From: a virus
Virus record (IMG/VR): IMGVR_UViG_3300044816_000064
Span: 1-41,523 of that record
Length of the DNA: 41,523 nucleotides
Reading direction: 5' to 3' (one strand)
Positions within the stretch are counted from its first letter, which is position 1. Each line of letters opens with the position of its first letter. Below, one piece after another: positions 12,032 through 31,754 of this stretch. Both the position numbers and the translations under genes were made by a program. Below the pieces are notes generated by a model, which worked only from the letters and a program-made list of their open reading frames with translations, searched no databases and had not been told where the DNA came from.

Positions 12032-12053
12032 CGATAGTATGGAGTTATTGAAA
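12032..12053 (+). repeat. Left 22-bp terminal inverted repeat
   Basis: Begins CGATAGTATGGAG and matches the reverse complement of 13468-13489 in all 22 positions. Similarity fades immediately outside and only a few bases agree further inside. Confidence 0.9.
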
Positions 12054-12070
12054 GTGTGGGCTTTTTGCCC

Positions 12071-12111
12071 CGCCGAAATAGGTCCGGCGACTCACCTCGG
12101 GGAGAGGTGAG
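12071..12111. other. Two strong hairpins inside the left end of the cassette
   Basis: CGCCG (12071-12075) pairs with CGGCG (12085-12089), and CTCACCTC (12091-12098) pairs perfectly with GAGGTGAG (12104-12111) around a five-base loop. No T tract follows on the plus strand, so they are not a standard terminator. Subterminal hairpins like this are common in transposable elements and could also stop read-through into the cassette. Confidence 0.6.
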
Positions 12112-12126
12112 GAATGTTCCTAGCCG

Positions 12127-12452
12127 CTAGTTCCCCATCCAATCGCTGCCGCCACCGCGGCCGCCACCCCCGCGCGGTCGCGCGTTCACAACCGGGAGCG
12201 GCCTGTCTGGATCGGAAAAGAAATGACCGCCCATGGTGCAGCGCCAGCCATATTTCTCATTCGCCAGCGGATTGCGTTTGCCATCGTTTAGCGTTGAAGT
12301 GGATTCACCTCTCCTTGCAGACGCAGGTTCTGCGTCTTGAGGGATTGTATCTCCGTCTCCATCGCCGAAAACTCCTCATCGAGCGCGAGCATCTGCTGCT
12401 TCTTTTGAACCGGCATGGCAATGCCACGAAATGCGTCCGCAAGTCGCCCCAT
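12127..12452 (-). pseudogene. Small coiled-coil gene, apparently frameshifted
   Basis: From the ATG at 12450-12452 a 54-codon frame ends at 12288 and encodes a coiled-coil (QQMLALDEEFSAMETEI, then LKTQNLRLQGEVNPLQR). In the -1 frame the sequence continues with good coding character (GKRNPLANEKYGWRCTMGGH, then a Gly/Arg-rich tail) to a TAG at 12127-12129, but that part has no convincing start of its own. Coiled-coil followed by a short domain starting near a NEKYGW motif fits one protein split by a frameshift. Alternatives are two tiny genes or programmed -1 frameshifting. Function unknown. Confidence 0.45.
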
Positions 12453-12456
12453 GATT

Positions 12457-12732
12457 AATCCCCAGCATTCGACTGTGAATCACAGCCGTAAGGAATACGC
12501 GCGCACTGGCGGCATCACGACGAACTCCATCGAGGGCTATTTCGGCATCATCAAACGCGGGTTGGGCGGCATCTATCACTCCGTCTCGGAGCAACACCTT
12601 CATCGCTATCTTTCCGAGTTCGATTTTCGCTACTCGTTTCGCGATTTGTCCGATGGCGAGCGTGCAAAGCTCGCGGTGCGCAGCGGAGACGGAAAGCGTC
12701 TTACCTACCGAGCGATGGTTGGTGATCTATGA
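12457..12732 (+). pseudogene. IS1595-family transposase, C-terminal fragment
   Basis: About 92 codons read NPQHSTVNHSRKEYAR, then TTNSIEGYFGIIKRGLGGIY and HLHRYLSEFDFRYSFR, the C-terminal signature of IS1595 (ISXO2-like) DDE-type transposases, where the HSTVNHS and N-x-IEG parts surround the last catalytic residue. Full-length relatives are around 300 residues, so the zinc-finger and the catalytic Asp residues are missing. The homology stops abruptly at about 12455, where the start of the opposite-strand coiled-coil gene lies. A dead remnant. Confidence 0.8.
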
Positions 12733-12800
12733 GTTGCCAACTCAGGACAAGTGAGGAAAAGATTCTTTGACGAGCTTGTCCCATTTTGAAAAAATGTCTT

Positions 12801-12906
12801 TGGTGGGGGATAGGGGAATCGAACCCCTACGGGCATTGGTTCTCTTCTCACGGAGATGCCCGGCAGCTTCCAAGGCTGCTGTGTCTACCAGTTTCACCAA
12901 TCCCCC
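12801..12906 (-). tRNA. Class II tRNA with leucine-type body and UGG anticodon
   Basis: A complete cloverleaf: acceptor GGGGGAT/ATCCCCC, discriminator A and encoded CCA; D stem GTG/CAC with Leu-type loop AAACTGGTAGA; anticodon stem GCAGC/GCTGC with loop CTTGGAA; T stem AGGGG/CCCCT with loop TTCGATT. The anticodon is TGG (12870-12872), which reads CCA (proline). The variable region is 34 bases long, with a seven-pair stem CGGGCAT/ATGCCCG. A long arm, the D-loop form and A73 are features of tRNA-Leu; proline tRNAs are class I with a short variable loop. One change, A to G in the middle of a Leu UAG anticodon, would give this. If charged by LeuRS it would put leucine at CCA codons. It may also be a decaying gene. 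Confidence 0.8.
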
Positions 12907-12961
12907 CACTCGGGGGCGGGTCCAGGATGTTCTGGAAAACCTCGCTGGACCCGCCATCCGT

Positions 12962-13390
12962 TTACTGCCCTGCCGCTCCCTTCGCGGCCAACACCTGCGC
13001 AATGCCCCCGAAGAACGCCGTAATTCTGGCGGGGTCCCATCCTGCAATCTCAGCCATATCTACTTTGACGGTGACGTTGAACTGGATGCCGTCTACGCTC
13101 GGCTGAGGGGCTGCGCGAACGATGTGCGACGCAGTGGGCGGCGGTTGGGCTGGCTTGTCGGGTGTGACGGTGTCTGTAGCGGACGCAGGTCGCTCCTGCG
13201 CCCCCGTGGTGGCGCCATCAGCAGCGAGCTTCACCATTTCATCGGCGCGCACGACCAAGCCCGCGGCTTCCATGTAGTCGAGCAGGACGCGAAGCTGCGG
13301 CTCGTATTCCGGCGCGGCGTTACACGCATCGGCAAGGTGCTTGATCGCTTCCTTTTCGGTGTACGGGCGGAACGTGAGCCCCGGCATCAA
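12962..13390 (-). CDS. Unrecognised cassette protein, 142 aa
   Basis: N-terminal helical part with a winged-helix look (EPQLRVLLDYMEAAGLVVRA), then a Pro/Ala/Thr-rich linker, then a beta-alpha end (FNVTVKVDMAEIAGWDPARI and ITAFFGGIAQVL). The last part resembles the C-terminal strand-helix of DUF5343-like proteins, but the match is weak. Start at 13388-13390; ATG at 13385-13387 is an alternative. It lies upstream of the tRNA on the same strand and could share its transcript. No function can be given. Confidence 0.6.
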   Translation of the reverse strand: MMPGLTFRPYTEKEAIKHLADACNAAPEYEPQLRVLLDYMEAAGLVVRADEMVKLAADGATTGAQERPASATDTVTPDKPAQPPPTASHIVRAAPQPSVDGIQFNVTVKVDMAEIAGWDPARITAFFGGIAQVLAAKGAAGQ

Positions 13391-13467
13391 GCTTTGCGCG
13401 AACCACGTTTCCCGAATCGATGGCGCGAGCTTGTGAGTGGCGTTATCCGCGTCCCGGGGAACCCGAT

Positions 13468-13489
13468 TTTCAATAACTCCATACTATCG
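13468..13489 (-). repeat. Right 22-bp terminal inverted repeat
   Basis: Perfect inverted copy of 12032-12053. Its outer end lies 30 bases before the portal start codon, so it sits in the leader of the portal gene. Confidence 0.9.
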
Positions 13490-31608: not shown

Positions 31609-31704
31609 TGGGGAAGCTGATGGGCTTCCATCGCGTTCGTGAGCATCCATGGTTCCACGTGGAGCATATAAATCAACGATGTAACGATTCGTGGACAGGG
31701 GCAA
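31609..31704. other. Intergenic region upstream of attP core
   Basis: No gene seen. Contains a palindrome TCCACGTGGA near 31652, a GGAAGC/GCTTCC hairpin near 31615, and a GTGGAC copy near 31691 like those in the operator region. It could hold arm-type integrase or excisionase sites. No T-tract terminator for the late operon is visible here. Confidence 0.4.
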
Positions 31705-31754
31705 ACGGACTTTTAATCCGTTGGTCACTGGTTCGAATCCAGTACGCCCTACCA
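31705..31754 (+). other. attP core: 3' half of a tRNA-Lys(UUU) gene
   Basis: From the anticodon stem to CCA the sequence folds as a tRNA 3' half: stem ACGGA, loop CTTTTAA (anticodon TTT), stem TCCGT, variable TGGTC, T arm ACTGG-TTCGAAT-CCAGT, acceptor ACGCCCT and ACCA. Acceptor 5' strand and D arm are absent, so this is no functional gene. The integrase ends 14 bases away. Phages that integrate into tRNA genes carry exactly this identity segment so that the host tRNA is restored. Host site is therefore predicted to be tRNA-Lys(UUU). Confidence 0.88.

Follow-up and report, generated by a model that had tools for sequence, protein, structure and literature searches.

A leucine-type tRNA with a proline anticodon carried by IS1595-family transposons, and its possible recoding of one transposase codon

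Why would a phage carry a tRNA with the body of a leucine tRNA and the anticodon of a proline tRNA? The preliminary description of the window (the whole stretch of 41,523 nt that was analysed, an IMG/VR virus record) claimed such a gene at positions 12906-12801 on the minus strand, and the claim was borne out. The acceptor stem (GGGGGAU/AUCCCCC, 7/7 paired), the D stem (GUG/CAC), the anticodon stem (GCAGC/GCUGC, 5/5) and the T stem (AGGGG/CCCCU, 5/5) are complete. The anticodon loop at 12866-12872 (minus strand) reads CUUGGAA and the anticodon is therefore UGG. The discriminator is A73, the CCA end is encoded at 12801-12803 and the variable region is 34 nt long. Of the checks on the tRNA model proposed earlier, Rfam RF00005 scored the gene clearly above the cut-off (53.9 bits against 29, E 5.3e-9), but ARAGORN missed it, as it missed or misread several other long-arm members of the family. 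Its sole call in the window was a second tRNA, tRNA-Lys(UUU), at 31676-31754 on the plus strand. A strict pattern for leucine-type tRNAs with UGG matched once in the window and never in 100 dinucleotide shuffles. Stem pairing, the RF00005 score and covariation within the family thus confirm the gene as a real class II tRNA, intact and with the leucine identity elements in place.

Which amino acid such a tRNA would receive can be approached through its identity elements. In E. coli, LeuRS reads A73, A14, A15-U48, G18G19 and A20a (PMC9976931). The D loop and discriminator of the window tRNA carry this entire set, and the same positions are invariant columns in an alignment of 18 family members. 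A35 of the leucine anticodon is absent, with G35 in its place. Bacterial ProRS, by contrast, recognises C1:G72 (PMC10164551). Neither this pair nor the class I body of tRNA-Pro is present: all 17 members counted have G1:C72, and the variable arm is long. Because all leucine identity elements are present and the first pair is G1:C72 and not C1:G72, the window tRNA is likely a substrate of LeuRS, which supports the reading put forward in the preliminary description.

Charging with proline, or a role as a decoy against anticodon nucleases, is very improbable. G35, G36 and A73 are common to proline tRNAs, and changes in the anticodon loop of phage tRNAs can evade nucleases (PMC10264068). The first base pair, the leucine-type D arm and the variable arm nevertheless point away from proline, hosts already own a tRNA-Pro(UGG), and sibling tRNAs with the anticodon UUA would read stop codons. 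The decoy, one of the roles suggested earlier, is also unsupported as the main explanation in that it leaves the matched transposase codon described below unexplained.

The tRNA belongs to a family. At least 18 further leucine-type UGG tRNAs were found in phages and in bacteria of several phyla. Pattern scans for a leucine D arm, a long variable arm and UGG gave matches in five viral contigs besides the window and in twelve stretches of bacterial DNA (Alphaproteobacteria, Gammaproteobacteria, Chloroflexota, Bacteroidota and others). A thirteenth bacterial match (L125) does not form a cloverleaf. Among the matches, L126 has a poor acceptor stem, and L128 and L131 are one sequence with T73. Four full-length UGG tRNAs were found later (L229, L263, L302, L312). 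The alignment of 18 members comprises 13 UGG tRNAs collected before L229, and the others carry UGG, UUA or UCC. In these 18 diverged members 98.3% of the cloverleaf pairs are kept, with changes on both sides at 16 of 20 pairs. Pairing kept through compensatory change strongly indicates that selection maintains a functional tRNA. Other genomes thus contain homologues with these features, the reverse of what the preliminary description had named as grounds for abandoning its reading.

A decayed gene or a chance chimera devoid of function, the former also raised in the preliminary description, is accordingly highly unlikely and unsupported as the main explanation. The transposase beside the window tRNA is truncated and its target duplication was not found, so the window copy itself may be a relic. 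Against decay stand the covariation across the family, the perfect stems of the window tRNA and its encoded CCA.

Other class II tRNAs with unexpected anticodons were encountered. An alphaproteobacterial genome has two tandem, near-identical leucine-type tRNAs with the anticodon UGC for alanine codons (L193, G058:C3, ~60060 and 60308). At L013, L057, L101 and ~75 further viral loci, class II tRNAs combine a leucine-type D arm and a long variable arm with G73, a UC-type acceptor and the anticodon GUU (Asn). These GUU tRNAs of marine viral contigs are apparently a class II tRNA-Asn family.

How did the tRNA come to be in the phage? It lies in an insert of 1,458 bp (12032-13489) bounded by perfect 22-nt terminal inverted repeats, the left one (CGATAGTATGGAGTTATTGAAA) at 12032-12053 on the plus strand and the right one at 13468-13489 on the minus strand. 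The insert end GATAGTATG resembles the GGAAGTATG ends of other elements (L003, L302, L312, L121). To its left are a terminase large subunit gene and a gene for 262 aa, and directly to its right is the portal gene. The insert separates a structural gene from the portal gene. Nine related contigs, collected by portal protein, have no tRNA at all, and the cassette is therefore an insertion. Searches of phage and plasmid records with the insert DNA, and of viral contigs with the terminal repeat as an exact pattern, gave no match.

Within the insert, an ORF at 12415-12732 contains the C-terminal remnant (12466-12732, plus strand) of an IS1595/ISXO2-type transposase (Pfam PF12762, E 1e-15), which converges on the tRNA and is 53% identical to the transposase of a UGG element (L134). 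Two ORF calls lie on the strand of the tRNA. The one at 12288-12452, of 54 aa, has a coiled-coil-like sequence and is possibly, though weakly, a relic. The other, of 142 aa at 12962-13390, has a frame that is open upstream to the right repeat and matches nothing in Pfam or PHROG. Despite the perfect repeats, a search for a target duplication around the insert gave none. Since this duplication was not found and the transposase is truncated, the window copy is probably a relic that can no longer transpose. The suspected mobile cassette is identified as the remnant of an IS1595-type transposon. The idea that CCA stands at leucine positions of the portal gene of this phage was rejected, as the gene contains no CCA codon.

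Intact carriers were found elsewhere. Of the UGG tRNAs in the initial set, roughly half adjoin an IS1595-family transposase, whereas none of 78 loci resembling class II tRNA-Asn, collected by the same kind of scan, do so. In L130 and relatives the transposase is intact and of IS1595/ISXO2 type. Terminal repeats and 8-bp target duplications mark two of the elements as complete. L003 (TCTTTCCT) carries the transposase, a Schlafen/AlbA_2 protein and the tRNA, and L302 (TACTTCCT) carries the transposase, the tRNA, a winged-helix gene and a HicAB-like pair, which is of toxin-antitoxin type. L302 (~5030) and the related UGG element L312 (~1354) occupy the same kind of site, the 5' end of a ComF-like gene, which suggests a preferred target. 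Six loci of plasmid IS1595 relatives had no tRNA, and no description of tRNA cargo in IS1595 elements was found in the open-licence literature.

The tRNA usually has a neighbour on its own strand, a gene for a small protein. The predicted fold of this protein has a long helix at the N-terminus and a winged helix at the C-terminus (pLDDT 76.5, moderate confidence). Its best matches, all weak, are PadR/LmrR and Fur regulators, and no synthetase was matched. A search with this protein alone, blind to anticodons, yielded four new loci, and all four have a leucine-type tRNA just upstream (anticodons UGG, UCC, UUA and UUA). The module of tRNA and winged-helix gene therefore favours non-leucine anticodons. 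Some modules (L001, L021, L113, L230, L231) have no IS1595 transposase within the available stretch; L021 and L230/L241 pair a leucine-type UCC tRNA with the winged-helix gene in this way. In one UUA element a second tRNA, of class I with the anticodon ACC, directly follows the winged-helix gene (L232, 2893-2966, plus strand). A divergent locus (L038, 208-2893) combines a leucine-type UGU tRNA, a winged-helix gene, a GIY-YIG-like gene and an IS1595-like transposase.

What could such a tRNA do for a transposon? In an alignment of the transposases, the UGG elements share CCA at one column near the C-terminus, GKRLMYxx[CCA]. It is CCA in L002, L003, L004, L121, L130/L133, L134, L263, L302 and L312, that is, in all nine independent UGG elements in which the column is readable. 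The one exception is the broken copy in the window, where the codon is ATG (12715-12717, plus strand; GKRLTYRA[ATG]VGDL). Both UUA elements that have a transposase carry a stop at exactly the same column (L086 TAG, L232 TAA). In the family, though not in the window copy, a gene of the element itself thus has a codon cognate to the tRNA at one particular position.

Further relatives were collected by transposase homology. In one large group of tRNA-free relatives the column is leucine (TTG, CTG, CTC, CTT, TTA), and outside this group it is Thr, Pro (CCT), Ala, Ile or others; CCA or a stop never occurs at the column in tRNA-free relatives. One seemingly tRNA-free element (L272) has CCA, which predicted an overlooked UGG tRNA, and cmscan of a wider stretch then found a leucine-type UGG tRNA ~260 nt from the transposase. 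A covariance model likewise revealed UGG tRNAs at L263 and L312, and in both the column is CCA. In this homology-collected set the tRNA is present in 4/4 elements with CCA and in 0 of ~60 others (a rounded count; p 1.6e-6). Two cases are partial: in L305 the transposase tail is frameshifted but contains CCA, and the UGG tRNA is class-I-like; in L273/L304 a truncated UGG tRNA adjoins a transposase that has lost its tail. The tRNA screens of transposase loci mostly covered 1.5 kb on each side. The final screen used the covariance model, as ARAGORN and a GGYAGAC regex overlook variant D loops (L272, L263, L273, L275). The column was picked after the first elements had been seen, and the later cases are the real test.

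A tree of 119 rows, from which the window remnant was left out as too short, shows tRNA-bearing elements interleaved with tRNA-free sisters. The sister of L263 has CCC (L245), that of L134 has ACG (L244), that of L302 and L312 has ATA (L313) and that of L232 has ACT (L207). In all six independent pairs on supported branches the tRNA and the codon change together (sign test p 0.031, the floor for six pairs), and none of 68 rows is discordant. What the sequences show is the tRNA family, its location in transposons and a correlation, as such, between anticodon and codon.

The correlation might reflect linkage and not decoding, with CCA or the stop as a by-product of a constraint on DNA or RNA sequence near the end of the transposase. 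One group of tRNA-free relatives is biased at the column (mostly xCT), so a nucleotide constraint does exist near it. This explanation is still rather unlikely: at one and the same column, each of two anticodons is matched by its own codon, extended complementarity between mRNA and anticodon loop was not seen, and tRNA-bearing elements differ from their tRNA-free sisters.

Several other candidate target codons were considered and set aside. Another column, column 1 (E-CCA in L003, L004, L130 and L134), is not used as evidence, since CCA is replaced by CCC in L302 and is not kept in L312, and proline (CCT) is found at this position in tRNA-free L208 and L154. The two ACA codons of the UGU element L038 are at ordinary positions. 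The winged-helix gene has no in-frame stops in UUA elements, and a comparison of this gene between L001 and L021 gave no Leu/CCA or Leu/GGA correspondence. No obvious locked codons were seen in the neighbouring integrases of L001 and L231. In L285 (3434-3518, plus strand), a leucine-type UCU tRNA lies ~1.1 kb away from a transposase that is IS1595-like but of a different subfamily; close to the column-1 position this transposase has AGA.

The reading we prefer, to which we give a probability of slightly under 60%, is that the leucine tRNA (UGG) is cargo of an IS1595 element, recodes one codon of the transposase and so gates transposition of the element. An IS1595-family transposon would have inserted itself, with the tRNA aboard, between two phage structural genes. 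Intact relatives carry a transposase, the tRNA and usually the small coiled-coil/winged-helix protein. Charging, decoding and a gating or control role are what we infer from the sequences. Host LeuRS, which presumably does not read the anticodon, would charge the tRNA, and the tRNA would insert leucine at CCA. Its target would be a single codon a few residues before the C-terminus of the transposase, CCA in UGG elements and UAA or UAG in UUA elements. Were leucine placed at this column by the tRNA, neither the anticodon nor the locked codon could change without the other.

Conserved prolines of these elements are also encoded by CCA, and the idea of a full private code, with CCA as leucine throughout the element, was rejected on this ground. 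An ordinary tRNA-Pro(UGG) pattern was found in 5 of 8 host genomes checked (the pattern was strict and its absence in three means little). Decoding therefore cannot be all leucine and must be competition. At CCA the tRNA of the element would have to compete with host tRNA-Pro, and at a stop with release factor. The first contest would yield mixed proteins and the second, in UUA elements, partial readthrough. Only where the element expresses its tRNA would transposase bear leucine or be full-length. The element would thereby limit or gate its own transposition, with transposase activity kept low and tied to expression of the tRNA, and the winged-helix protein perhaps taking part in control. The column is leucine in many tRNA-free relatives, but in the nearest ones it is Ile, Thr, His or Pro.

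A more general role has to be weighed against this. The mistranslation agent of the preliminary description pointed in the right direction but is too general, as the evidence favours one codon of the element's own transposase. Under it, Pro-to-Leu errors (or stop-to-Leu, Gly-to-Leu) would arise proteome-wide as a stress or conflict factor, and the transposase codon would be secondary. In Streptomyces and Kitasatospora, tRNA-ProX and ProRSx form mistranslation pairs that insert the amino acid of the body at other codons (PMC10365949). The family resembles them in having several foreign anticodons on one body and a conserved partner gene (PMC10365949), and some modules lack an IS1595 transposase. 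General mistranslation nonetheless seems unlikely, since it leaves the matching transposase codon unexplained over two anticodons and several origins, and broad errors would burden the host of the element. Recoding of the single transposase codon remains the preferred reading.

Among known systems, tRNA-ProX is the nearest in concept (PMC10365949), likewise one body that occurs with several foreign anticodons beside a partner gene, but it is actinobacterial and has a proline body and a synthetase partner. The tRNA described here has a leucine body and a winged-helix partner, and it travels on a transposon whose own transposase contains the matched codon. IS1595 transposons with passenger genes share the transposase family, the terminal inverted repeats and the 8-bp target duplications, and differ in the tRNA cargo, which the open-licence papers searched do not describe for them. 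Stop-recoded phages bring suppressor tRNAs, which give a codon in the phage's own genes a new reading, and the UUA elements are nearest to these; the differences are the single transposase position, the mostly sense codon (CCA) and the insertion-sequence carrier. Nematode nev-tRNAs, which are eukaryotic and chromosomal, pair an anticodon with an amino acid that the standard code does not assign to it. The same is true of the Candida CUG tRNA (PMC10365949). Both have this mismatch in common with the tRNAs described here, and unlike them are eukaryotic and chromosomal.

A broader proposal is about evenly balanced in our judgement. The elements may form a class of bacterial transposons with a private decoding key, consisting of a reprogrammed leucine tRNA (UGG, UUA, perhaps UCC, UGU, UCU) and a matching locked codon in the transposase. 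Both would switch together in evolution, and active transposase would be made only with the element's own tRNA expressed.

Annotation by anticodon hides this family, as ARAGORN labels its members as Pro, Ala or stop tRNAs or reports nothing. The old question of why odd tRNAs travel on mobile elements becomes simply testable here. If the preferred reading is true, these would be, as far as found, the first natural leucine tRNAs of bacteria in which selection keeps anticodons for proline, glycine, threonine and stop codons, and the first insertion sequence carrying a tRNA to recode its own transposase.
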